Assembly: GCF_009687865.1 (NCBI RefSeq)
Contig: NZ_BLAE01000053.1
Span: 1-64,000 of the forward strand
Length of the DNA stretch: 64,000 nt
Source: Acrocarpospora macrocephala
GTDB lineage: Bacteria > Actinomycetota > Actinomycetes > Streptosporangiales > Streptosporangiaceae
Direction: 5' to 3'
Positions 5,734 through 25,055 of this stretch are shown one piece after another. Numbering within the stretch: position 1 is the first letter of the stretch; each line of letters opens with the position of its first letter. The notes under the pieces were generated by a model. That model searched no databases. It saw nothing but the letters and a program-made list of their open reading frames with translations, and was not told where the DNA came from. Position numbers and translations under genes: made by a program.

Positions 5734-5773
5734 GTTGGTCGCGGCCACCGGAGGCGGCTGCGAAAATTGACGG

Positions 5774-6931: not shown

Positions 6932-7977
6932 CGGCACGGCGGACAGTCGGGATCGCGGGGGCCATCGTCGGTGCGGCCTCCGCCGGCGTGGCGGCGGGCA
7001 CGCTCGCCAAACGGTATGCGGTGGGCCGGATCCGGCTGCGCGTTGACCCGGAGGCGAACGAGCCCTTCGGCGAGCTACGCGGCCGGGAGACCACGCTCAC
7101 CACCTCGGACGGCCTGGAGATCCACGCCGAGGTGGACGGGCCGGAGGACGCGGAACTGACCGTCGTGTTGTGCCACGGCTACTGCCTGACCTCCGATTCG
7201 TGGCATTACCAGTGGCGGAACCTGCGGGATCGGTATCGGGTCGTGCTGTGGGATCAGCGCTGTCACGGGCAGTCCTCCCGGGCGGAGGCCGCCGACTGCA
7301 CGATCGACCGGCTGGGCGAGGATCTGGCCCTGGTGCTGTCGGAACTCGTGCCAGGGCCGTGCGTGCTGGTCGGCCACTCCATGGGCGGAATGACGATCAT
7401 GGCCCTGGCCGACCGGCGGCCGGAGCTGTTCGGGGATCGGGTGCGCGGCGTCGCGCTGATCTCGACCTCGGCCGGAAAACTCGCCGAGTTGAGCCTGGGG
7501 CTGCCGGCACTGGTGTCGAAAGTGGTGAACTTCGCCGTTCCCGGTGCGGTTTCGGTGATGCGCAAGCGGTCGGCCCTGGTGGATCGCGGTCGGCAGGTGG
7601 GCAACGACGTTTCCTTCCTGGCGCTGCGCCTGCTGGGCTTCGGTGACTCCAAGTCGGTCAGCCCGACCGTGGTCGACTTCGCCGAGTCGATGATCCGGGC
7701 CACCCCGTCCGAGGTGATCGCGGATTTCTATCCGGCGCTGATGTCGCATGACAAACTGACCGCGCTGGACGTCCTGAACAAGGTGCCGACCGCGATCGTG
7801 GTCGGCGAGCGCGACTGGCTCACCCCGCCCGACCACAGCCGCGCCATCGCCGCCGCCGTGCCGACGGCCGAGCTGACCTTGGTTCCGGGGACGTCGCATC
7901 TGGTGCAGTTGGAGCGGCCTGGCGTGGTGAACGACGCGCTGCGGGTGCTGCTCGAACGAGCCGCGAAACCTCAATAA
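6928..7977 (+). CDS. Alpha/beta hydrolase with N-terminal membrane segment
   Basis: This 349-residue alpha/beta-hydrolase fold protein has an oxyanion region LCHGYCLTSDSW, nucleophile elbow GHSMGG, acid region ERDWLTPP and catalytic His in PGTSHLVQLERP. A hydrophobic stretch near the N-terminus (VGIAGAIVGAASAGVAAGTLA) could anchor it or act as an export signal. I chose GTG 6928 because GAGGAG sits 7 nt upstream and it forms a GTGA overlap with alr; an in-frame ATG at 6895 would overlap alr by 37 nt. The substrate is unknown. Its place between alr and tsaE is common in actinomycetes and does not identify the reaction. Confidence 0.85.
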   Translation: MTARRTVGIAGAIVGAASAGVAAGTLAKRYAVGRIRLRVDPEANEPFGELRGRETTLTTSDGLEIHAEVDGPEDAELTVVLCHGYCLTSDSWHYQWRNLRDRYRVVLWDQRCHGQSSRAEAADCTIDRLGEDLALVLSELVPGPCVLVGHSMGGMTIMALADRRPELFGDRVRGVALISTSAGKLAELSLGLPALVSKVVNFAVPGAVSVMRKRSALVDRGRQVGNDVSFLALRLLGFGDSKSVSPTVVDFAESMIRATPSEVIADFYPALMSHDKLTALDVLNKVPTAIVVGERDWLTPPDHSRAIAAAVPTAELTLVPGTSHLVQLERPGVVNDALRVLLERAAKPQ

Positions 7978-8211
7978 GCGGATCCCCCGCGCCATGTCGT
8001 CTCATTGATCATGGAGCTCCCGCGTATGCCGTGACCATGTCTCGGCGGGGCGAGTTAGCCGATGGTAGCTCTTAGTGTTCAAATGATCGCGCTAGGGTAC
8101 CGACTCGGTGCCCGAGGGCCGCCGCGGCCGGGTCCGCTCCGCAGAGGCGCGCGTCATCGACCGCAGTGGCCTGGATTGGTCTGAACACCGACCTCAAAGG
8201 ACTGGGGATCA

Positions 8212-8754
8212 ATGGGCAAGACAGCATGGGTGAAGCCGGCCGTCGCGGCCGCCGCGCTGACGGCCGCCTTCGCGGCGGTCGGGGCTACCACCGCGCCGGC
8301 GTCGGCGACCACCGTCGCCTCGGAGCAGTCGTGTTTGGCGACGAAGAAGTTCGGCAGGACCTCATCGGGCTCGAGAATCGAGTTCACGCCCTGCGTGAAG
8401 ACCGACGGCAAGGTCATCGCCCTCGACCCCGGGGTGGCCTGCTTCGCGTACGGAATCTCCAGGGTGCACCGGCTCAAGGATTGCCGGGCCACGGGCGCGT
8501 GGTCCCTGTACAAGGACGGCGAGCGGGTCGCGTCGAGTTCCTCGAAGGACGCGAAGTACCCGGGGCCCGGCACCTACACCCTGACGGCCGACCTGCAGGG
8601 ATCAGGGAGCTGGCGGTTGAGCGACTCCCGGAACCGCAGCGGGTCCGTGCAGGTCAGCGCGGGCGGCTCGATGGAAGGGACGATCACGCTCACCGACTCG
8701 GTACGCACGCCGTCCAACTCTGACTCGCGTAAACGCATCCGTTCGTCGCGTTAG
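8212..8754 (+). CDS. Secreted protein of unknown function
   Basis: A 180-residue protein has a long Sec signal (residues 1-~33, ATTAPASA|TTV). The mature domain contains three or four cysteines (EQSCLATKK, FTPCVKTDG, VACFAYG, KDCRATG) and a beta-rich Ser/Gly segment ending in a basic tail (DSRKRIRSSR). I do not recognise a family. It starts at ATG 8212 about 11 nt after AAGGA. The 234 nt upstream contains the likely promoter, but I could not assign -35/-10 boxes with confidence. Confidence 0.65.
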   Translation: MGKTAWVKPAVAAAALTAAFAAVGATTAPASATTVASEQSCLATKKFGRTSSGSRIEFTPCVKTDGKVIALDPGVACFAYGISRVHRLKDCRATGAWSLYKDGERVASSSSKDAKYPGPGTYTLTADLQGSGSWRLSDSRNRSGSVQVSAGGSMEGTITLTDSVRTPSNSDSRKRIRSSR

Positions 8755-8875
8755 CGCTGGGCCTCGGTCTTCGCGGCTGGCAGCCGTCCGGCCAGCCGCG
8801 GGCCGTCGCGTACGTTGGGCGGTCGTCGCCAGGTGATGGTGTGATTGGGGGATGGACTCTGCGAATGGAGCTGGG

Positions 8876-9334
8876 ATGCGGACTGAGGTGCGGAACGCGG
8901 AGGAGATGCGGGAGCTGGGGGCCCGGATCGCCGGGCTGCTGGGTCCCGGAGATCTGGTCGTGCTGACCGGTGCGCTGGGGGCGGGGAAGACCACCTTGAC
9001 GCAGGGGATCGGGGAAGGGCTGAAGGTGCGGGGGCCGGTCACCTCGCCCACGTTCGTGATCGCCCGGGTGCATCCTCCGTTGGGGGAGGGGCCCGCGCTG
9101 GTGCATGCGGACGCGTACCGGCTGGGGGGCACGCTGGAGGTCGACGATCTTGATTTGGACGCGTCGATCGCCGATTCGGTAACGATTGTGGAGTGGGGGG
9201 AGGGCCTCGTCGAAGATCTTTCGGAGCAGAGGCTCGAAATCCTGATCGAATCCAGCCCCGATGATGATCGGCGAATCGTGCACGTTCGGGGTGTTGGCAG
9301 TCGTTGGTCCGATATCTCTGCCGCATTGATCTAG
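8876..9334 (+). CDS. tsaE: tRNA t6A biosynthesis ATPase TsaE
   Basis: This P-loop ATPase works with TsaB and TsaD in threonylcarbamoyl transfer to A37 of tRNA. Walker A is LTGALGAGKTTL. The family blocks GPVTSPTFVIARVH, LVHADAYRL and VTIVEWGEG are present. I chose ATG 8876 (GGAG six nt upstream, giving MRTEVRNAEEMRELG), though an in-frame ATG at 8852 adds eight residues. In many actinomycetes tsaE lies directly before tsaB; here a lipoprotein/sortase pair separates them. Confidence 0.93.
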   Translation: MRTEVRNAEEMRELGARIAGLLGPGDLVVLTGALGAGKTTLTQGIGEGLKVRGPVTSPTFVIARVHPPLGEGPALVHADAYRLGGTLEVDDLDLDASIADSVTIVEWGEGLVEDLSEQRLEILIESSPDDDRRIVHVRGVGSRWSDISAALI

Positions 9335-9447
9335 GCCGTTACCCGCTGGACCCTTCCACAACTCTGGAGATCAAGAGAAAATGAAGATCTTTGGTAATGG
9401 ATTGGCCTAGGTTTTCGGGGTACAGGTGCGGTGAGAGGGGTGCGCCG

Positions 9448-10086
9448 ATGGGCAAGCTGATTCAGGCCGCGTGTGCGGGGGCGATGTTGATCGGCGTGGT
9501 CGGGTGCTCGGCTGAGGCCCAGACCGGCACGCCTACGGGCTCCCCGTCCCCGTCGGCCTCGTTACCCACCCCGACGGCGTCGCTGTCGGTGATACCCCGG
9601 CAGAACATCCGGGTCGTGGTGGATCCGACGTCGATATCCGGAGGGGTCACCAAGAACGTCCGGGTGACCGCGTTCTGTCCGCCCGCCCAGCCGGGCACCA
9701 CGTACAAGGCCAATGCCCGGTCCGACGCGTTCACCGGCGTCGTCAGCCTCATGCCCCCGACCGTCGCGACCCCCGCCGCGGCCACCCCGGCGGCCACCGA
9801 ACCCAGGCTGACCGGTGTCGCGCTGCTCAACCCCAACGCCAAAGCCGGGGGATACCGGGTGGAAGTGCGCTGCGAGGCCACCAACGACGTCGGCAACGCC
9901 CGCTTCCGGGTGACCGCCCCACCCGCCGACACCTTCCCCACCAAGGCGCCTGGCGCCGGCGGCGGCGGCACGGCCGCGGGCGGCCCCGAGGAATCCTCCG
10001 GCCTGCCGATCACCCCGATCACGCTCGGCCTGCTGACCGCGTTCTTCGTCGGCATCGCCGTAGCCCGCAGGCGCAACCGGGGCTGA
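9448..10086 (+). CDS. Lipoprotein with C-terminal membrane anchor, sortase partner
   Basis: From ATG 9448 (GAGAGGGG upstream; an earlier ATG at 9391 spoils the signal) the protein is about 212 residues. It has a lipobox VVGC with C20 as the lipidation site, then a Ser/Thr/Pro-rich linker. A ~110-residue domain with two cysteines (TAFCPP, EVRCEA) follows, then a Gly-rich linker. The end is a hydrophobic helix (TPITLGLLTAFFVGIAVA) followed by RRRNRG. The helix plus positive tail resembles a sorting signal or a plain anchor, but no clear LPxTG/LAxTG is visible; SSGLPITP is the nearest. It lies 3 nt upstream of the sortase gene, so they are one operon. Confidence 0.75.
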   Translation: MGKLIQAACAGAMLIGVVGCSAEAQTGTPTGSPSPSASLPTPTASLSVIPRQNIRVVVDPTSISGGVTKNVRVTAFCPPAQPGTTYKANARSDAFTGVVSLMPPTVATPAAATPAATEPRLTGVALLNPNAKAGGYRVEVRCEATNDVGNARFRVTAPPADTFPTKAPGAGGGGTAAGGPEESSGLPITPITLGLLTAFFVGIAVARRRNRG

Positions 10087-10089
10087 GAT

Positions 10090-10644
10090 TTGGCCAGCTC
10101 CACCCGCTCGTGGATCATCGCGGGAGTGATCACGGGATTCGTCCTGGTCGCGATCGGCAAACCGCACATCGACGAGCAGACCGCGACCCGCTCCTCCGCC
10201 GTGCCCGAACGCATCGACATCCCCACCCTCGACCTCAAGGCCCCCCTGATGGAACTCGGCCTGACCGGCGCGGGCGACGTCGAACTCCCCCCCTACGAAA
10301 AGCCCAAAGTCGCCGGCTGGTACACCGGCAGCGCCGTCCCCGGCGACACCGGCGCCTCCGTCATCATCGGCCATGTCGACACGAAATCCGCCCCCGCCGT
10401 CTTCTACCGCCTCCGCGAACTCCGCAAAGGCGCCACCGTCAAAGTCCACCGCAACGACGGCAAAACCATCGCCTACACCGTCGACTCAGTCGAACAAATC
10501 CCCAAAGACAGATTCCCCGCCAGAAGCGTCTACACCGGCGATGGCCTCCGCCTGGTCACCTGCGGCGGCACCTTCGACTGGAAAAACCACGAATACCAAG
10601 ACAACATCATCGTGTACGCCTCCCGCGTGACCAGCTCAGCCTGA
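10090..10644 (+). CDS. Class F sortase
   Basis: A 184-residue protein has an N-terminal membrane helix (SWIIAGVITGFVLVAIG) and a sortase beta-barrel. Catalytic His95 is in IIGHVD and Cys158 in LVTCGGTFD. The C-terminal strand is YQDNIIVYA. It starts at TTG 10090. Class F sortases in actinobacteria usually have Arg in a YRDN context 12 residues after the Cys; here that position is Gln170 (EYQDN). The enzyme may use another residue or be less active. Its partner lipoprotein is immediately upstream. Confidence 0.85.
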   Translation: MASSTRSWIIAGVITGFVLVAIGKPHIDEQTATRSSAVPERIDIPTLDLKAPLMELGLTGAGDVELPPYEKPKVAGWYTGSAVPGDTGASVIIGHVDTKSAPAVFYRLRELRKGATVKVHRNDGKTIAYTVDSVEQIPKDRFPARSVYTGDGLRLVTCGGTFDWKNHEYQDNIIVYASRVTSSA

Positions 10645-11441: not shown

Positions 11442-11905
11442 TCGGCCAGGCGCCAGTGGCCGCCCTCCGGCAGATGACCGAGCGCGACATCGCCGATGTG
11501 GTCGCGGTCGAGCGGGCCACCTTCCCCTTGGACGCGTGGACCGAAGGCATGCTCCGCGGCGAGCTGGCCGACCAGCCCCGCACCCGCCACTACCTGGTCG
11601 CCGAAGTGGAGGGCAGGATCGTCGGCTACGCGGGCCTCGCCGTCGCCGCCGACCAGGCCGACGTGCAGACCATCGCCGTCTACGCCGACCATCGCCGCGC
11701 CGGCATCGGCTCCCAGCTCCTGACCGCGCTCCTCGCCGAAGCCGCCCGCCGCGGGGCCACCAAGATCTTCCTAGAGGTCCGGGCCGACAACCCGCCCGCC
11801 CAGACCATGTACACCAACTTCGGCTTCGAGGCGTACGGCGTGCGCCGCGCCTACTACGACGACGGCACCGACGCGATCACGATGATGAGGGAACTCGATG
11901 GCTGA
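11438..11905 (+). CDS. rimI: Ribosomal-protein-alanine N-acetyltransferase (RimI-like GNAT)
   Basis: The 155-residue GNAT enzyme probably acetylates N-termini such as ribosomal protein S18. Visible motifs are [18 protein letters not shown] (motif C region), [24 protein letters not shown] (acetyl-CoA pyrophosphate loop) and [32 protein letters not shown] 11438 overlaps the tsaB stop and its own stop overlaps tsaD by 8 nt. Fusion or linkage of rimI with tsaB/tsaD is standard in bacteria. Confidence 0.93.
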
Positions 11906-12920
11906 CCAGCCGATCGTCCTGGGGATCGAGACATCCTGCGACGAGACGGGCATCGGCATCGTGCGCGGGCACACGCTGCTCGCCGACACGATCGCCTCCA
12001 GCATCGACGAGCACGCCCGTTTCGGCGGGGTGGTGCCCGAGGTGGCCTCTCGCGCGCACCTGGACGCGATGTCCCCCACCGTGGAAAGCGCCCTGGCCAA
12101 AGCTGGTTTGCGGCTGGCCGACATCGACGCCATCGCGGTGACGGCGGGCCCCGGCCTCGCGGGCGCGCTCCTGGTCGGGGTCGCGGCGGCGAAGGCGTAC
12201 GCGCTGGGGCTCGGCATCCCGCTCTACGGGGTCAACCATCTGGCCGCCCACGTCGCCGTCGACCAGCTCGAACACGGGCCGCTCCCCAAGCCCTGCCTGG
12301 CCATGCTGGTCTCCGGCGGCCACTCCTCGCTCCTGCTCGTCCCCGATGTGGCAAAAGAAGTGATCTCGCTCGGCTCCACCGTGGACGACGCGGCGGGCGA
12401 GGCTTTCGACAAGGTCGCCCGCGTGCTCGGCCTGCCCTTCCCGGGTGGCCCTCACATCGACCGTGCCGCCCGCGACGGCTCGGCCACCGCGATCGCCTTC
12501 CCGCGCGGCAAGGCCGATGACGGCACTCTCGATTTCTCTTTCTCCGGCCTCAAAACCGCCGTCGCCCGCTACGTGGAGAAGCACGGCGGCTCCCTGTCCA
12601 TCCCCGACGTGGCCGCGTCCTTCCAGGAGGCCGTCGTCGACGTCCTCACCCGCAAGGCCCTGGCCGCCTGCGCCCAGCACGACGTCCACGACCTCCTCAT
12701 CGGCGGCGGCGTCGCCGCCAACTCCCGCCTCCGCGCCCTGGCCCAGGAACGCTGCGACGCGGCAGGCGTGCGTTTGCGCGTCCCCCGCCCGGGTTTGTGC
12801 ACCGACAACGGCGCCATGGTCGCGGCTCTGGGCGCGAACCTCTTGGAGGCCGGCATCGCGCCATCCCCGCTGACGATCCCCGCGGACTCCTCGCTCCCCA
12901 TCACCACCATCCACGTCTGA
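11898..12920 (+). CDS. tsaD: tRNA N6-adenosine threonylcarbamoyltransferase TsaD
   Basis: The 340-residue Kae1/TsaD catalytic subunit begins with [11 protein letters not shown]. Metal ligands H114 and H118 lie in [27 protein letters not shown] and [11 protein letters not shown] are all present. It installs t6A on ANN-decoding tRNAs. The last five codons and the stop are part of a 26-bp sequence that is repeated perfectly at 18840-18865, so its 3' end is the left boundary of an apparent insertion. Confidence 0.97.
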
Positions 12921-12930
12921 TCTTCTGGGT
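12905..12930 (+). repeat. Left 26-bp direct repeat, overlapping the tsaD 3' end
   Basis: This 26-bp sequence starts CACCATCCACGTCTGATC and ends TTCTGGGT. It is identical at 18840-18865. It covers the last codons and stop of tsaD plus 10 nt. The two copies flank a 5.9-kb module (TetR, ABC importer, M24 protein, RidA), as expected for a target-site or recombination duplication. Confidence 0.9.
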
Positions 12931-13003
12931 CCGGTGCGGTCGCGTGCCGGAGGTGACCGGCGGGCGGTTCATGTAGCGAGTCGCTGAAGGGTCGGCACAG
13001 GCG

Positions 13004-13053
13004 GTGATCCGCGAACCGGTCCGCAACCCCGCGCGGCCGGTTCGGCGGATCAC
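13004..13053. terminator. Long hairpin between convergent tsaD and tetR
   Basis: GTGATCCGCGAACCGG (13004-13019) pairs with CCGGTTCGGCGGATCAC (13037-13053) with one bulged base, around a GC-rich loop. It lies between the tsaD stop and the stop of the convergent TetR gene. There is no long T-run, as is common in actinomycetes. Confidence 0.55.
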
Positions 13054-13064
13054 TCGTGTCCCTC

Positions 13065-13727
13065 TCAGGAATCGGGGTTCGCCGTCACGTAGCCCGTCAC
13101 CATGTCCGACAGGAGTTTGCGCAGGCGCTCGCGGTTCTCCGGCGTCGCGGGGTTGCTCTCGAACAGCCACTCGAACGTGAACTGGTTCGACATGCGGAAG
13201 AAGCTGAAGCTGGTGATCGCGAAGTGGAGGTCCACGGCGTCGATCCCCTGCCGGAAGACGCCCGTGCGCAGACCCCGTTCGACGATCTCCGACAGCAGCG
13301 CCAGCGCCGGGCTGGCGAGCTCGTCGCGCACCCCGGACTTCCGCAGCTGTTCCCCCCGCAGGATGTTCTCCCCCGCCATGAGCCGCACGAAGTCCGGATG
13401 GCGTTCGTGGTAGTCGAAGGTCAGCTCGATCACGCGGCGCAGTGCGGTGAGCGGATCGAGATCGCCCACGTGCACCTGCTGCTCCTCGGCCCTGATGCTG
13501 GCGATCGAGCGTTCCAGCACCGCCCGGTAGAGCCCTTCCTTGTCGCCGAAGTAGTAGTAGATCATCTTCTTCGTCGTCTGGGTCCGCAGCGCGATGTCGT
13601 CGATCCGCGCGCCGGTGTAGCCCTTGTCGGCGAATTCCTCGGTCGCCACCTTCAAGATGTCGTCACGAGCGTCCTGCCGGGTGCCCGGCCCTTTTCGCCG
13701 CGTGTTGCCAGCCTTCGCGTTCGACAC
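13065..13727 (-). CDS. TetR-family repressor of the adjacent ABC/M24/RidA operon
   Basis: This 220-residue TetR regulator has its HTH at residues ~20-66 (DILKVATEEFADKGYTGARIDDIALR, then KKMIYYYFGDKEGLYRAV). An all-helical ligand domain follows. It is divergent from the importer operon. The 234-nt spacer holds two matching copies of TCACCANTTNGTGA, one 22 nt before this gene's start and one about 56 nt before the permease start. Autoregulation and control of the operon are therefore likely. The ligand is unknown and is presumably the imported compound or a breakdown product. Confidence 0.9.
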   Translation of the reverse strand: MSNAKAGNTRRKGPGTRQDARDDILKVATEEFADKGYTGARIDDIALRTQTTKKMIYYYFGDKEGLYRAVLERSIASIRAEEQQVHVGDLDPLTALRRVIELTFDYHERHPDFVRLMAGENILRGEQLRKSGVRDELASPALALLSEIVERGLRTGVFRQGIDAVDLHFAITSFSFFRMSNQFTFEWLFESNPATPENRERLRKLLSDMVTGYVTANPDS

Positions 13728-13748
13728 CCGTCCGCCTGTTCTCTCACA

Positions 13749-13762
13749 TCACCAGTTGGTGA
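13749..13762. promoter_or_regulatory. TetR operator copy 1 (TCACCAGTTGGTGA)
   Basis: This palindrome has 6-bp arms and a 2-nt centre, 22 nt upstream of the tetR start. It matches the second site at 13893-13906 at 12 of 14 positions, with both arms conserved except one base. Confidence 0.65.
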
Positions 13763-13892
13763 CTTCGACTGAGGTCCAGGTTAGCGACTGCGCGGACGAG
13801 AGTACAGAGGTCTCTACCTGTGCCTGAAGCGGAATCAGTCGACATCGGGGTATGGACGTTCGTCGACATGGCGTTGTACGGTTGCGCCCTGT

Positions 13893-13906
13893 TCACCATT
13901 TAGTGA
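13893..13906. promoter_or_regulatory. TetR operator copy 2 within TGTTCACCATTTAGTGAACA
   Basis: The core TCACCATTTAGTGA lies inside a 20-bp inverted repeat (13890-13909) with perfect 7-bp arms TGTTCAC/GTGAACA. It sits about 55 nt before the permease start, in the position of an operator over the importer promoter. Confidence 0.7.
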
Positions 13907-13961
13907 ACAAAACATCGCCCTCTCTGCGCGGATTGCCGCGAGGCAGATTCGAGAGGTAATC

Positions 13962-14804
13962 ATGACCGACCTTCACATCCCGAGTCCCGCCAAACCCCAT
14001 GGTGGGCCCGCTCTCCGCGACAACGCCCGTGCCCGCACCTCGCGAGGCGCCCACCGCGGGCCGCTGGCCATCTCGATCGCCGGGATCGCGGGGCTGCTGG
14101 CGCTGTGGGAACTGATCGTGCACACGTTTGACATCCCCGGCTACCTGCTGGCGGGCCCGTGGGAAGCGCTCGCCGAGATCGCCGCCGCCCCGGGTTTTTA
14201 CTGGCAGCACAGCCTGATGACGCTGGAGGCGTCGGCGCTGGGCTTCGGCGCCGGCGGTGTGCTCGGCGTCATATGCGGTGCCGTGATCTTCTATGTGCCG
14301 GCCATCCGGCATGTGCTCTACCCGTCACTGATCGCGGTGAACACGATCCCCAAGGTCGCCATCGCCCCGCTGTTCATCGTCTGGTTCGGCTTCGGGCTGG
14401 AGTCCAAGAGCTTCGTGGCCCTGTCCATCGCGTTCTTCCCGCTGGTGATCAGCACGTTCGACGGGCTCGCCTCGGTCCCATCGGAGCTGCGGGAACTGGC
14501 CAGGATCAACCGGGCGTCGAAGTGGAACCAGATGCGCAAGATCGAGTTGATCCACTGCCTGCCCTCCATCTTCACCGGCATGAAGATCTCGATCTCGATG
14601 GCCGTCGGTGGCGCCGTCGTCGGCGAGTTCATCGCCGGTAACTCCGGCCTCGGCTTCGTGATCCTGGTGGCGAACAGCCAGGTGAACCTGACGTCGATGT
14701 TCGCCGCCTTCATCTGCCTGGCAGTGATGTCACTGGCGCTGTTCATGGTCGTCGACCACCTGGGCCGGATTCTCCTGCCCTGGAATGTCGCCACTTCGAA
14801 GTGA
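13962..14804 (+). CDS. ABC importer permease, NitT/TauT/SsuC type
   Basis: The 280-residue permease has about six membrane helices. The cytoplasmic EAA loop is visible as ELARINRASKWNQMRKIELIHCLPSIFTGMKISI. It begins with a ~30-residue polar tail (ATG 13962, GAGAGG ribosome site). The closest known groups are permeases for sulfonate, nitrate, taurine or thiamine-precursor (NMT1/THI5-like) uptake. It forms an operon with the lipoprotein and ATPase that follow. The substrate is not determined by sequence. Confidence 0.9.
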   Translation: MTDLHIPSPAKPHGGPALRDNARARTSRGAHRGPLAISIAGIAGLLALWELIVHTFDIPGYLLAGPWEALAEIAAAPGFYWQHSLMTLEASALGFGAGGVLGVICGAVIFYVPAIRHVLYPSLIAVNTIPKVAIAPLFIVWFGFGLESKSFVALSIAFFPLVISTFDGLASVPSELRELARINRASKWNQMRKIELIHCLPSIFTGMKISISMAVGGAVVGEFIAGNSGLGFVILVANSQVNLTSMFAAFICLAVMSLALFMVVDHLGRILLPWNVATSK

Positions 14805-14826
14805 CCGAGAAAGTGATGCAGCTCCG

Positions 14827-15855
14827 ATGATCTCTCGCGCACTGCACGGGGCCGTGGGCCTCGCCGTGGCCACCGCGCTGCTGACCGGCTGCTCCGCCGC
14901 GTCATCCGGCCGGGAGCAGGTCACCTTCATGATGGACGTCGCCCTGCTCCCCAAACACGCACTGTTCTACGCGGCCGTGGACCAGGGATTTTACCGCGCC
15001 GCCGGCTTCGACGTCATGATCGTCCCCGGATCCGGCTCGAAGAACACCGCCCTGGCCGTGGCGTCCGGGCGGGTCTCCTTCGGGTTCGCCGACTTCGGCC
15101 AGACCGCGCTGGCGCGGTCCCAAGGCGCCAAGGTCAAGCAGCTGGGACTCGTCCAGGCGCGGACCGCCTACGCCACCATCACCACCAGCGACACCGGAAT
15201 CAGGCGATGGCCGGACCTGAAGGGCAAGAAGGTCGCGACCGAGGCCGGCGGCGCGATGGCGGCGATGTTCCCGCTCGCCCGCGAACGGGCCGGCCTCAAG
15301 GAATCGGACGTGCAGCTGATCGCCGCCAGCGGCCCGGCCAAGATTCCCGGACTGCTCAGCGGGCAGTGGGACGCCACCCTGGCGTTCTACAACTCCGATC
15401 AGCCGGTGCTCGTCTCGCTGGGTTACACCCCGGTGATGCTGAAGTGGAGCGACCTCGGAATCTCCATGTACGGCAACGGGATCATCGCCGGCGACGAGGC
15501 GATCGCCGGTGATCCCGACCGCGTCAGGCGCTTCGTGACCGCCACGCTCCGCGGCGTCAAGTGGGCCTGCGATCACCAGGACCAAGCCGGCCGATCCCTG
15601 CTCGGCCATGTCCGGCTGATGAACCAGAAGGCCGCTCAAGCGGGAGTCGCCTCCGCATGCGACCTGGTGTGGAGCGAGGAAACGCGGGCCCGCGGCCTCG
15701 GCGTGATGACCGACGCCGGTGTGCGGCACGTGCTGGACCTGACCGGCCGGTACCTGAAGGCCGACACGGGCGGCGTACGGCCCGCCGATCTGTACACCGA
15801 CGAGTTCCTGGCGCCGATCGGCCCGGCGACGGTCATCGACGCCCCCCACAACTGA
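14827..15855 (+). CDS. ABC importer substrate-binding lipoprotein, NMT1/THI5-like
   Basis: From ATG 14827 the protein is 342 residues. It has a lipobox LLTGC (C22) and an NMT1/SsuA-type periplasmic-binding fold. Family segments are KHALFYAAVDQGFYRAAGFDVMIVPGSGSKNTALAVASGRVSFGFADFGQTALA, WPDLKGKKVATEAGG and LLSGQWDATLAFYNSD (given here as landmarks). An in-frame ATG at 14785 would place the signal peptide internally, so the later start is preferred. Relatives bind pyrimidine precursors, sulfonates or other small nitrogenous ligands. Confidence 0.88.
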   Translation: MISRALHGAVGLAVATALLTGCSAASSGREQVTFMMDVALLPKHALFYAAVDQGFYRAAGFDVMIVPGSGSKNTALAVASGRVSFGFADFGQTALARSQGAKVKQLGLVQARTAYATITTSDTGIRRWPDLKGKKVATEAGGAMAAMFPLARERAGLKESDVQLIAASGPAKIPGLLSGQWDATLAFYNSDQPVLVSLGYTPVMLKWSDLGISMYGNGIIAGDEAIAGDPDRVRRFVTATLRGVKWACDHQDQAGRSLLGHVRLMNQKAAQAGVASACDLVWSEETRARGLGVMTDAGVRHVLDLTGRYLKADTGGVRPADLYTDEFLAPIGPATVIDAPHN

Positions 15856-15886
15856 CCTCTCCCGGCCCCATCGAAGCGAGACCACC

Positions 15887-16663
15887 ATGACGACGTCCCC
15901 TGTGATCGAACTCGACGCTGTCGGGATGACCTACCGCAGCCGCAAGGAGACCAACACCGTCCTCGACGGGTGCACGCTCAGCGTCGGCCGCGGCGAGTTC
16001 GTCTCGATCGTCGGCCATTCCGGCGGCGGAAAGACGACCCTCCTGCGCATCATCTCCGGGCTGATCCATCCCACCGAGGGCTCGGTGTGGGTGAACGGCC
16101 AGCACCTCGACCAGTCGCTGAGCGACATGTCGATGGTGTTCCAGAAGCCGGTCCTGTTGCCCTGGCGCAACAACCTGCAGAACGTGTTGCTGCCCATGGA
16201 GTTCCGCGGCCGGGTCACCGACACCATGCGCGCCTACGCGATGGAACTCCTCGAGATGACCGGGCTGAAGGACACCGCCCGGCGCCATCCGTACGAACTG
16301 AGCGGCGGCATGCAGCAGCGGGTCGCGATCTGCCGGGCACTGGTGTCGCATCCCGACATCATGCTCATGGACGAGCCGTTCGGCGCGCTCGACGCCATGA
16401 CCCGGGATTCGATGAACCTCGAACTGCAACGCATCTGGTCGGAAACCGGCCGGAGCATTCTCTTCGTCACCCACAGCATCCCCGAGGCGGTGTTCCTCAG
16501 CGACCGCGTCGTCGTCATCGGAGGCAAGCCCGGCCGGGTCGTCGCGGACATCGCCGTCGACCTGCCCCGACCGCGTACCAAGGCCCATCGCTACACGCCC
16601 GAGTTCTACGAGTACGAGCAGCAGATCTCCGAACTCATCGGGGCGAAGGAATCCATCGCCTAG
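15887..16663 (+). CDS. ABC importer ATPase, NitT/TauT/SsuB type
   Basis: The 258-residue ATPase has Walker A GHSGGGKTTLL (43-53), the Q-loop in MVFQKPVLLPW, signature LSGGMQQR and Walker B IMLMDEPFGALDAM. The switch His is in FVTHSIPEAVFLSDRVVVI. It completes the importer with the permease and lipoprotein upstream. The M24 gene starts 36 nt later, so the hydrolase is very likely co-transcribed. Confidence 0.93.
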   Translation: MTTSPVIELDAVGMTYRSRKETNTVLDGCTLSVGRGEFVSIVGHSGGGKTTLLRIISGLIHPTEGSVWVNGQHLDQSLSDMSMVFQKPVLLPWRNNLQNVLLPMEFRGRVTDTMRAYAMELLEMTGLKDTARRHPYELSGGMQQRVAICRALVSHPDIMLMDEPFGALDAMTRDSMNLELQRIWSETGRSILFVTHSIPEAVFLSDRVVVIGGKPGRVVADIAVDLPRPRTKAHRYTPEFYEYEQQISELIGAKESIA

Positions 16664-16699
16664 CCCCAGCCGAAATGAATCTCCGAAAGGAAGTGAACG

Positions 16700-18352
16700 G
16701 TGTACCTGGATTCCGATCTGGACCACATCCGCCGGACCTACCACTTCGATCCCATCGTGGAGCTGCTCATCCCCAACATCCGAATGGACGCGCCCAAGCT
16801 GGCCACCCCGGTCATCGCCCGGTGCGCCGACGGCACCGAGTACGTGCTGTCCCGGCAACAGGAGTTCGGTAGCCTGCTGGCCCGGTCCGTTCCGGAAGAC
16901 CGCATCCGCCTGTTCGAGGGCTACGTCACGCTCGACCCGCGGCTGAAGAAGGCCGAATCGGCGCAGAACTTCGCCGCCGCGGTCCGGGCGCTGACCGACG
17001 ACAAGGTGATCACCGTCGACCCCGGATTCCCGTATTCGCGGTACCTGGCCCTGTGCGAGCACTTCACCGTCGATGTCGAGGCCCGCCCTGCCCCCACCTC
17101 TCCGCGCGTCAACGTCTTCGCCGTGGAGGCCGGCGACGTGCTGGCCACGTTCGCGCGGCTGAGGGCACGCGGGCCCGAGGCCGCCGCGCGCGTGATCGCC
17201 GACGTGCCGCACCTGGACGGGCTCGCCGCCGAGTTCACCACCGACGTCGACACCCGGTTCTCCGCCCTGGACAAGCTCGCGGGCCGGCTCGGCATCGGCG
17301 CCCTCTTGTCGTCCGCGCCGCCGAACTTCTCCGAACTCACCGGATCGGCCTGGCGAGCGGGTGTGCACGCGCTCTGGGACCGCGCCTCGGGCACGGTCTT
17401 CATCCTGGCGCGCCACGACATGTTCGGCGTCGAGGGCCAGCCCGTCGGCTCGTACCCGGACCTCGCCGCCGCGGTCGACGCACTCGTGGGCCAGGTCGCG
17501 CTCGGCGTCGAGGAGCACTGGCTCGACGTCACCACCGCCCTTGAGCTGCGGTCCGGCGAACGGCGGCTGGTCCCGGCGTCGATGCCGCTGGGGGCGTGGC
17601 GTGATCACCGCGACGCCGAGGATCTGCCGTTCCAGATCATCGCGGCGCGGGCCAGCCGGTTCTGCATCGAAGGGGCCCTGGCGTTCGCGCAGGACCGGCT
17701 CGACTCCCACGGCGGCGTCCGCGAGAACGAGGTGTACGCGCGCTACCTCGACCTCGTGCACGAGTTCCGGCGACGGTACGAGATCCCCTTCACGCTGGAA
17801 CCGTTCTTCGTCAACCTGCACGCCGCCGACCGCAGCCTGTATCCGGGGCCGCCGACCGATTTCCGCATCACCACGAACACCGGCTCGGTCAAACTCGACG
17901 CGGGGCTGAAGGTCGGCGTCAACGGCGTCGTCCTGGGGACCTCCGACATGGCGCGCAGCCTCGTCACCACGCCGCAGGGACGCGAAGCGTACGAGTTCTT
18001 CCTCAAGGTGGTGCGGGAGGACATCATCGGCACCCTCACCGTCGGCCGCAACTGCGAGCAGGTGCACCACGACGCCGTCGCGGCGATCATGCGGAACCGG
18101 GCGCGCCTGATCGAGCTCGACCTGCTCAGTGACGACGTGGACTTCCCCGCCGAGTACGGCAAGCGAAACGTCGGCCACCTGATGGGCAAGCAGGAGTCCT
18201 TCGGGATCGAGTTCAAGCGAGGGCACGACATCGCGCTGCCCGCCCGTTCCCTCGGCGCTGCCGAGATCCAATGGTCGTACGGCCGCTACTCGATCGGTGC
18301 GGAGGACATGTGGTACCTCGGCGCGGACAAGACCTACATCACCTCGATGTGA
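16700..18352 (+). CDS. M24-fold metallohydrolase (creatinase/aminopeptidase-P-like)
   Basis: The 550-residue protein starts at GTG 16700 with AAAGGAAG upstream. Residues ~180-300 resemble a creatinase N-terminal domain (LGIGALLSSAPPNFSELTG). The C-terminal part has the five pita-bread metal ligands in order: D400 (KLDAGLKV), D416 (GTSDMARSL), H493 (NVGHLMGKQES), E522 (AAEIQW) and E535 (IGAEDMW). Family members hydrolyse Xaa-Pro peptides, creatine, ectoine or similar amides. The surrounding motifs are divergent and the protein is about 100-150 residues longer at the N-terminus than classic members. Because it sits in an importer operon with RidA, it probably processes the imported compound; the reaction is unknown. 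Confidence 0.72.
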   Translation: MYLDSDLDHIRRTYHFDPIVELLIPNIRMDAPKLATPVIARCADGTEYVLSRQQEFGSLLARSVPEDRIRLFEGYVTLDPRLKKAESAQNFAAAVRALTDDKVITVDPGFPYSRYLALCEHFTVDVEARPAPTSPRVNVFAVEAGDVLATFARLRARGPEAAARVIADVPHLDGLAAEFTTDVDTRFSALDKLAGRLGIGALLSSAPPNFSELTGSAWRAGVHALWDRASGTVFILARHDMFGVEGQPVGSYPDLAAAVDALVGQVALGVEEHWLDVTTALELRSGERRLVPASMPLGAWRDHRDAEDLPFQIIAARASRFCIEGALAFAQDRLDSHGGVRENEVYARYLDLVHEFRRRYEIPFTLEPFFVNLHAADRSLYPGPPTDFRITTNTGSVKLDAGLKVGVNGVVLGTSDMARSLVTTPQGREAYEFFLKVVREDIIGTLTVGRNCEQVHHDAVAAIMRNRARLIELDLLSDDVDFPAEYGKRNVGHLMGKQESFGIEFKRGHDIALPARSLGAAEIQWSYGRYSIGAEDMWYLGADKTYITSM

Positions 18353-18357
18353 CCGCG

Positions 18358-18831
18358 ATGACCACGACAACGAACACCGCACTGGATCGGCTGCGACGGC
18401 TCGGCTTGACGCTGCCCCCGGCGGCGGCGCCGAAGTACGCTTACGAGGCGACGACCCGCCTGGGCGATCTGCTGTTCGTCTCCGGCCAGATATCCCGCGC
18501 CGGGGACGGAACCGTCGTCACCGGTACGGCCGGTGACTCCGCGACGGTGGCCGAGGCTGTCGAAGCCGCTCGGATCTGCGCGCTGAACCTGCTCGCCCGG
18601 ATTCACGCGTCTGTCGGTCTGGACAACGTCACGCAGATCCTCAAACTGAACGGATACGTGGCCAGCGGCCCGGAGTTCACGGACCAGCCGACGGTCATCG
18701 ACGGCGCCTCCACGCTGCTCCGAGACGTGCTGGGTGAAGCGGGCCGGCACGCGCGGACCGCGCTGCCGGCACCGGTCCTCCCGGCACGCGCACTGGTCGA
18801 GATCGAGGCGATCGTCGCGGTACGCACCTGA
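18358..18831 (+). CDS. RidA-family (YjgF/YER057c/UK114) protein
   Basis: A 157-residue RidA-like protein starts at ATG 18358, 3 nt after the M24 stop. Family blocks are LLFVSGQISRAGDGT, ARICALNLLARIHASVGLDNVTQILKLNGYVAS and the C-terminal ALVEIEAIVAV. An Arg in the expected active-site region is in HARTALPAP. RidA proteins hydrolyse reactive enamine/imine intermediates from PLP enzymes or amine catabolism. In this operon it may deaminate a product of the M24 enzyme. Confidence 0.85.
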   Translation: MTTTTNTALDRLRRLGLTLPPAAAPKYAYEATTRLGDLLFVSGQISRAGDGTVVTGTAGDSATVAEAVEAARICALNLLARIHASVGLDNVTQILKLNGYVASGPEFTDQPTVIDGASTLLRDVLGEAGRHARTALPAPVLPARALVEIEAIVAVRT

Positions 18832-18839
18832 CCGCGACG

Positions 18840-18865
18840 CACCATCCACGTCTGATCTTCTGGGT
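18840..18865 (+). repeat. Right 26-bp direct repeat of the importer module
   Basis: Perfect copy of 12905-12930. The flanking bases differ on both sides. Its last base is part of the stop codon of the convergent response regulator, so removing the module would leave tsaD directly facing that gene across about 10 nt. Confidence 0.9.
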
Positions 18866-19470
18866 TAAAGCCACCCTTGATCTCCGGCTCGCTGGAGGGC
18901 TTCGGTGCGGTTGCGTGCGCTGGTCTTCTGGATCGCCGAGGACAGATAGTTGCGCACGGTGCCCTCCGAGAGGTGCAGGTGAGCCGCGATGTCGGAGATG
19001 GTGGACCCGTTGGCAGAGGCGATCAGGACGTCGCGTTCTCGTGGGGACAGCGGGTTCGGGCCGGCGCTCAGGGCGGCGGCGGCCAGGGCGGGGTCGATGA
19101 CACGTTCGCCCGCCTGTACGCGCCGGATCGCCGCCGCCAGTTCGCGGGCTGGGCTGTCTTTGACCAGGAACGCGGAGGCTCCGGATTCCATCGCGCGGCG
19201 CAGATAGCCCGGTCGCCCGAAGGTGGTCAGAATCATCACCCGGCACCCGGGGAGGCTTTCCCGCAGTTTCCCGGCGGCTGCGATCCCATCCATGCCGGGC
19301 ATTTCGATGTCCAGCAGTGCGATGTCCGGCTGGACTCTGGCGGCGACGGTAAGCAATTCGTCTCCGGAGGCGGCCTCGCCCACCACGTCGATGTCCGGCT
19401 CCAAACCGAGCAACGACGCCAGCGCGCCCCGGACCATCGCCTGATCCTCTGCCAGTACGACCCGGATCAT
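18865..19470 (-). CDS. NarL/DesR-type response regulator
   Basis: The 201-residue protein has a receiver domain with phosphoacceptor D54 ([12 protein letters not shown]), Thr in MILTTFG and Lys in FLVKDS. A LuxR-type HTH follows ([37 protein letters not shown]). It overlaps the upstream kinase stop (ATGA). It belongs to a four-gene ABC/two-component operon in which the kinase and permease are damaged, so its phosphorylation input may be lost. Confidence 0.93.
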
Positions 19471-20234
19471 GAGGCGTTGATCCCTATCTCGACTGACTCT
19501 GCGACCCGGATGGGAACCTCAACGCGCAAACGAAATCCTCGGGTGCCGAGGGACGCGGCCTGCAAGGTTCCTCCCGCGGCCTCGACGCGTTCGGACAAAC
19601 CCGTCAAGCCGCTGCCCGGTTGGGCCGCGCTGCCCTGGCCGTCATCGGTGATGTCGAGGATGGCCGTTGAGGTGTTGTGGGTGACCTCGATGAGGCAGCG
19701 GGTGGCTCGCGCGTGCCGTACCACGTTGGTGGTGCCTTCACGGACCGCCCAGCCGAACAGGCCGTCGAGATCGGCGACCAGTGGTGGGCCGGATCTGCGG
19801 ATAGTTACGGTTACCCCGGCCGCCTCAAGAGTGGATCGTGCGTTGTCGAGTTCATCGCTGAGGGCGCGTTGCCGGTAGCCGGTTACGGCTTCGCGCACCT
19901 CGATCAGGGCCTGGCGGGCGACCGATTCGATGTCGGCGATCTCCCGGCGGACCGGTTCCGCGCCCGAGTCGGTTTCGGCCAGGCGGCTGGCCAGCTCGCT
20001 CTTGAGCACGATCAGCGAGAGGCTGTGGCCGAGGAGATCGTGCAGGTCGCGGGAGATGCGCAGGCGCTCGTCGGCGGCGGCCAGGCGGGCGACCTCGCGC
20101 TGGGCCTGGCGGAGCTGGACGACCAGTAACCGGGTGTTGCGCACGCTCATGAACAGCACGCCCAGGGTGGTGACCTGGAGCAGCAGGATGACGAGCGTGC
20201 CCGCGTCGGTGCCGAGGAACAGCCCTTCGACCAC
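19467..20234 (-). pseudogene. DesK-type sensor kinase, N-terminally truncated
   Basis: About 255 residues of a HisKA_3 kinase are readable from a possible GTG at 20234. They contain one membrane segment ([19 protein letters not shown]), the phospho-His in [24 protein letters not shown], and an ATPase domain with [24 protein letters not shown] and [16 protein letters not shown]. Intact relatives carry 4-6 N-terminal helices (about 360-400 residues in total). Upstream of ~20240 the sequence becomes ABC permease in another frame. The simplest reading is a deletion joining permease and kinase genes. The kinase core could still be made by reinitiation and act without its sensor. Confidence 0.75.
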
Positions 20235-20731
20235 GACGGTCGCGCAGGCTCCGCGGGCAGCAGCGAGCCGATGGTCAGGCCCAGGGCCGCGAACGGGATC
20301 GTGCCGAGCCACATCGCCGGAACCAGTGCCAGCCATTGCCCGGCCGGCAGCGTCACGTGCTGGGTGAGTACGGCGGCCAGGCAGACCAGCAGCAGCGAGG
20401 GCAGCACCAGCAGCAGCGAGGCGACCAGCTTGGTGGCGATGATCGTCCAGCGGGACAGCGGCGTGACCCGCAGTTGCCGCAACCAACCGCCGGTCCTCTC
20501 CTGGGCCCAGGGCACCGCGCTCGACATCATCGAGGCGGCGAGCGCGCCGTACGCGGCCATGGAGACCATGAGGATCACGCTGGCCGGCTGGCCGGTGGCC
20601 GCGTCCAGCTGGCTGCCCCAGAGGCTGGAGTAGAGCAGGTAGAAGCAGACGGGGAAGGCGACGACGAAGATGACATACCGCTTGTTGCGGAACATCCGCA
20701 GGGCTTCGATCCTGACGTAGTTCGGCATCAC
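20147..20731 (-). pseudogene. ABC-2 type permease, C-terminally truncated
   Basis: The first ~162 residues ([19 protein letters not shown] ... [14 protein letters not shown]) are a normal ABC-2 permease N-terminus with about four helices. After ~20245 the frame runs into out-of-frame kinase DNA and reads Ser/Arg-rich nonsense ([17 protein letters not shown]) to a stop at 20147. Intact relatives are ~245 residues with six helices. The start overlaps the ATPase stop. An assembly collapse is possible but cannot be tested here. Confidence 0.75.
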
Positions 20732-21612
20732 GCCTCCCGGGTGAGCGCGACGAACGCGTCTTCGAGATCGGCCCCGCTGATCCGCAGGTCGCGCACGTCG
20801 AGGGAGGTGCCCCGGTAGAGCGCGGCGATCGTGGCATCCGGGTCGGCGGTGCGCAGGATCGCCCGCCCCGAGCGCAGTTCGACCCCGCTGACCTGGGGGA
20901 GCGCGGCCAGCGCTGCGGACGGCTGATCGCCGATCGCGAAACTCACGGTCTGCCCGCCGACACCCGCTTTGATCTCGGCGGCCGTCCCGTCGGCGACCAC
21001 CCGCCCGCGGGCGATCACGATCACCCGGTCGGCGTTCTCGTCCGCTTCTTCCAGGTAGTGCGTGGCGAAAAGCACGGTATGCCCGTCCGCCGCGTACGTC
21101 CGCATGCTCGCCCAGAACCGGCGCCGGGACTCCACGTCCATCGCGGCCGTCGGCTCGTCCAGGACCAGCAGGCGAGGCGCTCCGGCGATCGCGAGCGCGA
21201 ACCGTACCCGCTGGATCTGGCCGCCGGACAGGCGGTCGGCGCGCAGCTTCGCGACCTCGGTGAGGTCGGCCATCCGCAGGATCACGTCGAGCCCGAGCGG
21301 CCGGGGGTAGAGGCGCCGGATGAAGTCCACCGTCTCGGCGACCGTGAGCTCCGGGATCAGCGTGCCCTCCTGGAGCATCGCGCCGATCTCCCCGCCGCTC
21401 ACGGCCTCCTCGGGGGTACGGCCGAAGACGCGTACCGTGCCCGACGTCGGCCGGATCAGGCCGAGCAGCATCGAGATCGACGTGGACTTGCCCGCTCCAT
21501 TCGGGCCCAGCAGGGCGACCGTCCGCGCCCGTGGAATCTCCAGATCGAGCCCGGCCACGGCGACCACGTCCCCGTAACTCCGGCTGACCTTGTCAAATGC
21601 GATGGCGTTCAT
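20728..21612 (-). CDS. ABC exporter ATP-binding protein of the DesKR-type operon
   Basis: The 294-residue ATPase has Walker [13 protein letters not shown] (about 35-46), Q-loop MLQEG, signature LSGGQIQR, Walker [13 protein letters not shown] and H-loop [16 protein letters not shown]. The C-terminal ~80 residues are the usual accessory domain of drug/lipid-export type ATPases. It is the first gene of the operon. Because its permease partner is broken, the exporter is probably inactive unless another permease substitutes. Confidence 0.92.
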
Positions 21613-21687: not shown

Positions 21688-23085
21688 CTAGTCCTTGGAC
21701 GTACGCGTGGGGCGGAGGAGGGCCTCGGCGAGGGCGAGCATGGTCTCTTCCAGGGCGCCGAGGCGGCGGGTCATGTCGGTCTGGGCGGGTTCCACGGTCT
21801 TGGTGAGGGTTTCGGTGAGCTGGTCGCGGTCGGGGCGGGCGGTGATGAGCGGAGTCAGAGCTTCGGCAGCCTCGGTCAGGCGGAGTTCGACCGTGTCGAA
21901 GCGGGTGGCGTGGTGTGCCCCGAGCTCGCCGAGGTTCTTGTGGAGTTCGCTGATCTCCAGGGTGGCGGGCAGCTGGCCGACCCGCTGGTTGACCGCCTCG
22001 ACCCGGTCGTCGACTCCGTCAAGGCGCTCGGCGACCTGCTCGTCGAGCGTGGTGAACCGGGCCCGCAGACCCTCGTCCAGGAAGTCCATCCGCTCGTCCT
22101 GACGGTCGAGATGCCCGTCCACCGTCAGCAGGCGGGCGTCCACGCCGGTCATCCGGGTGTCGATGTCGGCCAGGCAATCGTCGGCGGTCTCGATCCGCCC
22201 GTCGATCCGGTCCAGCCGCGCGGTCACCCCGGCGACCTGGCCCTCCAGCGCGTGGAACTGCGCGCCGGTCTCCGACTGCCCCTCGCCGACCGTCGCGAGA
22301 CCGGCGCTGACGGCGGCCAGGCCGGTGTCCAGCCGGTCCAGCCGGGTGGTGACGACCGCCTGGCGGCTCTCGACGTCGCCGATCCGCACCGCGACCTGCT
22401 CGACCGCTGTGGTGACCCGGTCGGCGGCGGCCTCCACCGCGCCCCCGAGGCCCGAGTTCAGGTCGAGCACGCCGCCTTCCAGCCGCTCGGTCCGCTGCGC
22501 CAGCTCGCCGAGCGCCTTGTCCAGCCGGGTGAACCGGTTGGCGGCCGTCTCCATGCTGGCCTGCAGCTGCCCGAGCCGTTTGGTGAACTCCACCATGCGA
22601 TCGGCGACGTGCTGGGTGCCGTCAAGGACGGACTGGAGCCGGGCCAGCGCCTCGTCGACGCTCTCCCCGACCGTGCCGACGTCGGCCCACAGGCTCGGCA
22701 GTTCCGCGATCGGCTTGACCCGCTCCCCGACCGCGCCGACCCGCTCGCTCACCGCGTCCACGTGGTCGCGGACCAGTTCGACGTGCTGGGCCAGCCCTTC
22801 CGCCCAGGACGGCGGCCGGTTGGTGATGTCGTCGAGGCGGCCGCTGACCGCCTCCATGGTGCCGCTGAGCCCGCCGAGCTCCCGCTCGCGCACTTCGCGG
22901 AGCAGCCATTCCATGCCTTCGAGCCGCTGCCGGATCTCGTCCAGCACCGCGCCCTGGGTGCGCTGCTCGTAGACGTGGTCCTGGGCCGCGCGGGCCAGCA
23001 GCTCGCGCATCCGGTCGGAGATGGCGGCCTGACTGCCCGCCTGGAGGAGGGTGTGGTTGGAGTGGTCCACCGAAAGCTCCTTCAC
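21688..23085 (-). CDS. Long coiled-coil protein, unknown function
   Basis: A 465-residue protein is almost entirely amphipathic helix. Residues ~130-430 show repeated heptad-like blocks of the kind VxxRLDRLDTGLAAV, VTARLDRIDGRIETAD, MTGVDARLLTVDGHLD and LDEQVAERLDGVDDRV. There is no signal peptide or membrane segment. It resembles apolipoprotein/tropomyosin-like or DUF-type actinobacterial coiled-coil proteins, and might form cytoskeletal or polar scaffolds, but no specific family is recognised. ATG 23085 has an AGGAG-like site in front (AAAGCTCC on the plus strand). It may be co-oriented with the ABC operon but is separated by its own spacer. Confidence 0.75.
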   Translation of the reverse strand: MKELSVDHSNHTLLQAGSQAAISDRMRELLARAAQDHVYEQRTQGAVLDEIRQRLEGMEWLLREVRERELGGLSGTMEAVSGRLDDITNRPPSWAEGLAQHVELVRDHVDAVSERVGAVGERVKPIAELPSLWADVGTVGESVDEALARLQSVLDGTQHVADRMVEFTKRLGQLQASMETAANRFTRLDKALGELAQRTERLEGGVLDLNSGLGGAVEAAADRVTTAVEQVAVRIGDVESRQAVVTTRLDRLDTGLAAVSAGLATVGEGQSETGAQFHALEGQVAGVTARLDRIDGRIETADDCLADIDTRMTGVDARLLTVDGHLDRQDERMDFLDEGLRARFTTLDEQVAERLDGVDDRVEAVNQRVGQLPATLEISELHKNLGELGAHHATRFDTVELRLTEAAEALTPLITARPDRDQLTETLTKTVEPAQTDMTRRLGALEETMLALAEALLRPTRTSKD

Positions 23086-24422: not shown

Positions 24423-24431
24423 GCCCCGAGG

Positions 24432-25055
24432 CTATCCGGCATTGCCGAATGCGATATCGACAGGGAAGGGCAGATCCACGGCCACCCGTCCTCTGTCGAT
24501 CTTGACCAGTCCGTAAGCACAGGTTGCTGGATCCAGCTCGAAGACGTACACAACCAGCTGGTTCTCCTTCTTCTCCACCCGCCAGAAGTGCGAGATCCCG
24601 CTTCGCGCGTACTTCGGAGGCTTGACCACCCGATCCCGGTGCGCGGACTCGGGAGAGACGACCTCGACCACCAGATAAACCTCTTCGGCCTGGTAGGAGG
24701 TGCGATCCAGGTCGGCACCCGCGACCGCGTCGATCACCATGACATCGGGGCAGGTGCGCGAGTGCGCGTCCAGCCAGAGATCCATTCCGCCGACGACGGA
24801 GAACACCGCCGGAGCTTGCCCGCTCAGCCCGATCCGCAGGCTGCTCACCATGCGCTCATGGAATCGGGTCTGTGGGGACCGGAAGACGAGGGCACCGTCG
24901 ATGAGCTCCACGCGGATGAAGAACTCCGGTTCTCCGTTGGGCCCGTCAAGGGGGAGCCGGTCGAGGTGGTCGGCGGTCCAGCCGCCCTTGGGTGGATAGG
25001 GCCAGTTGGCGAGGATGTCGTCCGCCAGTTCTGCCGCGTTCGTCACTCCAGTCAT
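24432..25055 (-). CDS. Uma2-family (DUF820) putative restriction-fold nuclease
   Basis: From ATG 25055 the protein is 207 residues. It shows the Uma2 layout: MDLWLDAHSRTCPDVMVID, then VYLVVEVVSPESAHRDRVVKPPKYA. This corresponds to PD-(D/E)XK residues D, E and K. An upstream in-frame ATG at 25157 would run through the groES promoter and CIRCE, so it is rejected. Uma2 proteins are abundant in actinomycetes and their function is unsettled. Confidence 0.82.
   Translation of the reverse strand: MTGVTNAAELADDILANWPYPPKGGWTADHLDRLPLDGPNGEPEFFIRVELIDGALVFRSPQTRFHERMVSSLRIGLSGQAPAVFSVVGGMDLWLDAHSRTCPDVMVIDAVAGADLDRTSYQAEEVYLVVEVVSPESAHRDRVVKPPKYARSGISHFWRVEKKENQLVVYVFELDPATCAYGLVKIDRGRVAVDLPFPVDIAFGNAG

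Follow-up and report, generated by a model that had tools for sequence, protein, structure and literature searches.

Does a block of genes that lies between two perfect copies of a short direct repeat, one of them covering the 3' end of a conserved gene, have to be a mobile element with attachment sites? The question is raised by a locus of the soil actinobacterium Acrocarpospora macrocephala in which a module of six genes (a TetR-family regulator, the three components of an ATP-binding cassette (ABC) importer, a divergent M24 metallohydrolase and a RidA protein) stands between the essential gene tsaD and a convergent gene for a response regulator, with a 26-bp repeat at either end. We examined it in a 64-kb window, the whole stretch of contig NZ_BLAE01000053.1 that was analyzed, and all coordinates are positions in that window unless a different locus is named. 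The genome is a 12.1-Mb draft in 166 contigs, and it was compared with four congeners, so that the genus set holds five genomes: A. macrocephala itself (G000), its sister species A. pleiomorpha (G001), and G002, G003 and G004. A previous inspection of the letters alone, the sequence-only reading, had proposed either an insertion at the tsaD 3' end or recombination between short repeats. Our conclusion, to which we give a probability of about 0.6, is that the module is an acquired operon that arrived once in an interval of gene turnover, and that the repeat is a later breakpoint duplication produced by illegitimate recombination. Nothing on this tsaD/module locus was found among the literature matches listed.

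The repeat itself is as the sequence-only reading described it. The 26-mer, CACCATCCACGTCTGATCTTCTGGGT, is exact at both positions (Table 1); its left copy spans the last codons and the stop of tsaD, while its right copy adjoins the regulator stop so closely that its last base is the first base inside that codon (TTA on the plus strand). It is not a common dispersed repeat: a search of the whole genome that allowed up to three mismatches found these two places and no others. The flanks of the two copies differ, nothing matching lies beyond the 26 bases, and the longest word common to both junction stretches is 26, against a maximum of 13 when 984 size-matched pairs of stretches were taken at random from the window (1000 drawn, 16 discarded for lying less than 400 bp apart). 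That the pair is a coincidence, of chance or of assembly, is extremely improbable. The draft state of the genome and the presence in the window of other exact repeats of 50, 43 and 27 bp speak for it, the spacings of the latter suggesting paralogous or tandem sequence, but 100 shuffles gave an expected mean of 0.00 such pairs, and both copies lie within a single contig with different flanks. As to those other repeats, exact matches of 50, 27 and 19 bp in the stretch 51972-53227 are spaced by about 1030 bp and probably reflect neighboring paralogous genes, and the exact 43-bp repeat at 37716-37797, with a spacing of 39 bp, is a short tandem array.

What the repeat means is best read from the relatives. 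Four states of the locus (empty, module added, module replacing the neighboring operon, and neither) can be read in the five genomes, and the content of the interval between tsaD and a coiled-coil gene on the groEL side, hereafter the coil gene, differs in all five. G002 provides the empty site: tsaD is followed directly by the regulator, then by the kinase, the ABC genes and the coil gene, and its tsaD end, CACGTCTAAAGCC, overlaps the regulator stop by 4 bp. An empty site in which tsaD faces the regulator had been predicted and is indeed there; the single copy of the 26-mer predicted with it is not, for the junction reads CACTATTCACGTCTAAAGCC, keeping 11 of the 13 tsaD-coding bases of the 26-mer, and the best match in the 16-kb stretch of G002 is 16/26. 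None of the locus stretches fetched from the four congeners, among them that of the module-bearing sister, contains the 26-mer (best match 17/26).

The module of A. pleiomorpha is 97.4% identical to that of A. macrocephala, corresponds to 13051-18832, and has different ends. There, tsaD is followed by the ancestral tsaD/regulator junction, GTCTAAAGCC, intact as in G002, then by GATCTCCGGCTCGCTGGAGGGC, which matches the 3' end of the A. macrocephala regulator at 22/22 positions, and then by the module and the coil gene. Six base pairs are missing between GTCTAAAGCC and GATCTCCGGCTCGCTGGAGGGC, so that a 29-bp scar of the regulator 3' end lies to the left of the module; at this locus A. pleiomorpha has neither the repeat nor the regulator/kinase/ABC operon. 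The join between module and coil gene is almost without homology, and both joins share at most a base or so. The strong hairpin of the tetR strand at 13004-13053 (as good a fold arose in 1 of 200 shuffles) is almost wholly absent, the A. pleiomorpha join corresponding to 13051. G003 and G004 have different sequence between tsaD and the coil gene, about 0.5 kb in the former and 0.7 kb in the latter; that of G003 (locus L035, 12090-12600) contains degenerate repeated blocks (CACCTGCGTTAACGGCG...).

A wider survey covered 24 other loci, namely those of the four congeners and of 20 of 32 further genomes of the family. Both tsaD and the coil gene were found in 20 of them, with gaps, measured between alignment ends, of 28 bp to 5.8 kb; in two of the remainder the next conserved gene lay near tsaD, and two gave neither. 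The 8.8-kb gap of the A. macrocephala window is the largest in the survey.

Two features of A. pleiomorpha are at odds with the idea that both carriers gained the module through an insertion at the tsaD stop: its junction is intact, and an insertion would break it; and its regulator scar lies left of the module, whereas in A. macrocephala the whole regulator lies to the right. The A. pleiomorpha arrangement is in turn unlikely to be the parent state, because A. macrocephala keeps the tetR hairpin that its sister has nearly lost. Because the two carriers have unlike module ends, the 26-mer is no attachment site common to both.

Searches for the machinery of a mobile element agree with the earlier statement that no integrase or transposase is visible. 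None of the 37 Phage_integrase matches of the genome lies on the contig, and the 17 proteins scanned against Pfam around the site include no recombinase and no transposase, serine recombinases and transposases not having been searched genome-wide. No terminal inverted repeats join the module ends among the 25 listed of 58 inverted-repeat pairs, although very short ones could escape. A site-specific island should also have left an attachment site (attB) at the empty junction and the same ends in each carrier; the G002 junction holds no copy of the repeat, and in A. pleiomorpha both module ends and neighbors differ. The locus thus fails all three features of a tyrosine-recombinase island that were tested (integrase, attB and common ends), and there is no support for the 26-mer having served as target or attachment site of an insertion at the end of tsaD: the empty site is without the 26-mer, and the sister has other ends, an intact junction and a scar on the left. 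Site-specific insertion was therefore rejected as a simple account. The suggested excision across the 26-mers is not supported either, as its predicted product would keep 13 bp found in neither relative.

A simpler version, in which a single insertion in the A. macrocephala lineage placed the module between tsaD and the regulator and duplicated a 26-bp target, the A. pleiomorpha copy being a separate event, appears unlikely to us. Its agent would be an unseen integrase or transposase, or the fill-in of a staggered break. The perfect repeat does stand exactly at both module ends with nothing common beyond it, and both border genes retain their protein ends: the TsaD C-terminus, SLPITTIHV in G000, G001, G002 and G003 and SLPITTINV in G004, is unaltered by the insertion. 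Against this, no recombinase was found in the searches above, 26 bp is longer than the duplications usually made by transposases, and, because the sister carries this rare module in that interval too, with different ends, a second independent hit would be needed.

The least costly account that we found takes one acquisition, a deletion in A. pleiomorpha, and a join of ridA to a tsaD tail in the A. macrocephala lineage. The module would have been acquired once, before the two species split, and its entry point would lie inside or beyond the regulator-kinase-ABC operon, not at the tsaD stop. A deletion in A. pleiomorpha would then have put the module in the place of the operon, with the 29 bp of the regulator remaining. 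In the A. macrocephala lineage, later illegitimate recombination would have joined the ridA end (GACG) to a second tsaD tail together with the regulator operon, either by an unequal exchange in which one copy had the module and the other did not, or by tandem duplication followed by loss. The direct repeat would be the duplicated breakpoint: the work of no target-site enzyme, not an attachment site, and not needed for mobility. Of the mechanisms first proposed, recombination between short repeats comes closest to this evidence, except that the repeats appear to have resulted from a rearrangement rather than to have been its substrate.

Divergence between the two carriers is consistent with such a history. 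Synonymous divergence (dS) is 0.012-0.076 for the six module genes and 0.027-0.313 for seven other genes of the contig; the ranges overlap, which does not point to a much more recent import and would fit presence of the module in the common ancestor. Composition is not informative on origin, the guanine-plus-cytosine (G+C) content of the module being 0.673 versus 0.685 for the window, with third-position values (GC3) alike in the module and most neighbors. G000, G001 and G002 all carry a Ku gene, and end joining is possible in these genomes.

Several points weigh against this account. The 13 bp TGATCTTCTGGGT are found at both copies of the repeat and in neither relative, so that a further small event is needed, and the proposed intermediates are seen in none of the five genus genomes. 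Under duplication and loss, the clean ABC/coil junction would need a near-exact deletion at the old insertion point, a second deletion that unequal exchange avoids. A plain 26-bp target duplication explains A. macrocephala, taken alone, in one event, and the module may have arrived independently in the two species. Both module carriers lack a hairpin that can be read by eye on the coil side in G002 and G003, but G004 lacks it too. Finally, the left flank holds CGGTGCGGTCGCGTGC, which resembles the regulator 3' end at 15/16 positions and might be a remnant of it; this is only suggestive, the resemblance being weak and equalled by 8/2000 shuffles and 8/1264 real pieces. The other matches of this flank in the genus are all short (best E 0.0021, over 21 bp).

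The module could also have come in already joined to a tsaD tail. In what is known as homology-facilitated illegitimate recombination, a circle or fragment bearing the cluster and the tsaD tail of another congener would have integrated by RecA in the flanking core genes, with one illegitimate end. Such an event, which we consider rather improbable, could draw on homology on both sides and would give a duplicated piece that is a core-gene tail, as is observed; however, no donor with tsaD beside the module and with TGATCTTCTGGGT was present in the genomes searched, 26 bp is too short to reveal its own anchor, and the outcome overlaps with that of the breakpoint duplication preferred here. Of the contig genes compared for dS, the highest value, 0.313, belongs to a THUMP-like methyltransferase at 23256-25086 (83% identity in the 24-kb bin between the two carriers), far above the divergence of its neighbors; this stretch is likely a recombination tract.

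That the module was acquired at all is suggested by its distribution. The M24 gene was found in 2/297 genomes of the family (E<=1e-60) and 4/394 of the class (E<=1e-40), both being samples of larger groups in which A. macrocephala itself is counted; the six-gene cluster is thus rare and patchy in actinomycetes. A scan of GTDB contigs, with a reach limited to close relatives, recovered the module in A. pleiomorpha and Janibacter melonis. The order permease, binding protein, ATPase, M24, RidA is kept in six of seven compared loci (A. pleiomorpha, Janibacter, two Rhodococcus plasmids and two further genomes, the exception being the distant locus of Pantoea), with TetR present only in A. pleiomorpha and Janibacter. 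A plasmid search with the M24 protein gave four records, all below 60% identity: one from Pantoea (23%) and three from Rhodococcus, of which the third, H3, lay outside the gene-order comparison. Taken together, the patchy distribution, the gene order in Janibacter and the plasmid copies in Rhodococcus make it most likely that the module moved horizontally, and the cluster looks like a transferable operon.

It is conceivable that A. macrocephala exemplifies a class of cassettes without integrase, flanked by short direct repeats of a border-gene 3' end and moved by host recombination across those repeats, with Janibacter as a second case; we regard this as very doubtful. The module of J. melonis (locus L039) lies beside a tRNA-Ser gene, between near-copies of a terminator hairpin at 5883-5921 and 12676-12715 of that locus, and is flanked by two exact copies of a 19-mer. 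The 19-mer is one arm of the hairpin, and a third near-copy with one mismatch exists elsewhere in the genome. Two congeners were compared: G655 lacks about 9.2 kb including the module (L039 5894-15103; query 1195 to 10404), and G654 has no match on the right side of the module. Janibacter was rejected as a second repeat-bracketed case on these grounds: the nature of the 19-mer and its third near-copy, a gap in G655 longer than the module stretch, and the unmatched right side in G654.

The gene content between the two copies is as first described, with Pfam placing every gene except that for the M24 protein, and the description of a self-contained function holds for what is a six-gene uptake and breakdown cluster, most likely acquired.

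Table 1. Coordinates of the module, its repeats and the bordering genes in the 64-kb window
Feature	Position	Strand	Remarks
tsaD, left border gene	11898-12920	+	Open reading frame; TIGR03723 over cut-off
Left copy of the 26-bp direct repeat	12905-12930	+	13 bp of tsaD codons, TGA stop, 10 further bp
Left flank	12931-13003		No long match in the rest of the five genus genomes
Strong hairpin, likely tetR terminator	13004-13053	-	Arms in the inverted-repeat list; fold z -4.04
TetR-family regulator	13065-13727	-	TetR_N/TetR_C_29; best NCBIfam resemblance RutR, far below cut-off
ABC importer permease, sulfonate/taurine/nitrate type	13962-14804	+	BPD_transp_1; Pfam, NCBIfam
NMT1/SsuA-like substrate-binding lipoprotein	14785-15855	+	Start probably 14827 (judged by eye); Pfam, NCBIfam
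ABC importer ATPase	15887-16663	+	Pfam, NCBIfam
Divergent M24 (aminopeptidase P/prolidase-like) metallohydrolase, 550 amino acids	16700-18352	+	Profile search, invariant residues
RidA/YjgF family protein	18358-18831	+	Pfam YjgF/RidA
Right copy of the 26-bp direct repeat	18840-18865	+	Joins GACG 3' of ridA to the regulator stop
LuxR/NarL-type response regulator, right border	18865-19470	-	Directly faces tsaD in G002
Histidine kinase, ABC-2 permease, ABC ATPase	19467-21612	-	Operon not at this locus in A. pleiomorpha
Coiled-coil gene (groEL side), conserved border of the variable interval on the right	21688-23085	-	

The fifth protein has no Pfam match at E<=0.001. Creatinase_N lies just below the Pfam cut-off (E 0.0011, 20 bits versus 22), and the M24 catalytic domain gave no match even at E<=10, a threshold at which the search filters drop most matches above about 0.1. 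A profile of eight sequences searched against PDB matched prolidases best (E 7.5e-05), then YpdF and SPT16, with matches that extend into the catalytic half. Residues D400, D416, H493, E522 and E535 are invariant in eight homologues; we take them to be the D-D-H-E-E metal ligands of M24 enzymes. These matches and candidate ligands support the M24 label given by the sequence-only reading, for a divergent member. Like the M24 metallopeptidases (aminopeptidase P, prolidase, YpdF), the protein keeps the candidate ligands; unlike them, it has an N-terminal extension of about 185 residues, a 16-residue spacing between the two aspartates, and no Pfam match to the catalytic domain. The module likely serves to import and hydrolyze an amide- or peptide-like compound, with RidA clearing an enamine or imine product. 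Whatever its substrate, an uptake operon that is rare, apparently transferable and equipped with a divergent M24 enzyme deserves to be flagged.

To the right of the module, about 326 bp net are missing relative to G002 at the boundary of the kinase and the ABC-2 permease (20147-20270; 15 versus 341 unaligned nucleotides). Judged from this loss, the permease end and the sensor part of the kinase appear truncated. The regulator/kinase/ABC operon, gone from this locus in A. pleiomorpha, seems to be decaying in A. macrocephala.

How does the locus compare with known systems? As in tandem duplication-random loss or unequal exchange, a duplicated tsaD tail stands at the far end of the block, and the block order differs from that of the sister; the duplicated state itself, unlike in those systems, is not seen here. 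Tandem duplication-random loss is known mainly from mitochondria. With genomic islands bounded by attL and attR at gene 3' ends, the locus shares direct repeats that cover the tail of a conserved gene and leave its protein intact; it differs in that no integrase was found in the searches above, the empty site holds no att copy, and the ends are not common to the carriers. Hotspots of gene turnover without mobile elements, in which recombination takes place at the flanking core genes, have been described (Oliveira et al. 2017, PMC5635113). The present locus resembles these hotspots of horizontal gene transfer in that turnover occurs between the same two conserved genes, all five genus genomes differing, and in that no tyrosine integrase lies on the A. 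macrocephala contig; unlike them, its carriers also show scar-like illegitimate joins. Uneven dS between the two carriers (0.027-0.313) only hints at raised homologous recombination in the flanking core genes. By its turnover of content, the tsaD-coil interval belongs with the integrase-less hotspots. The kind of finding is ordinary, its details are well resolved, and it illustrates that a mobile element with attachment sites does not follow from perfect short repeats on either side of acquired genes.

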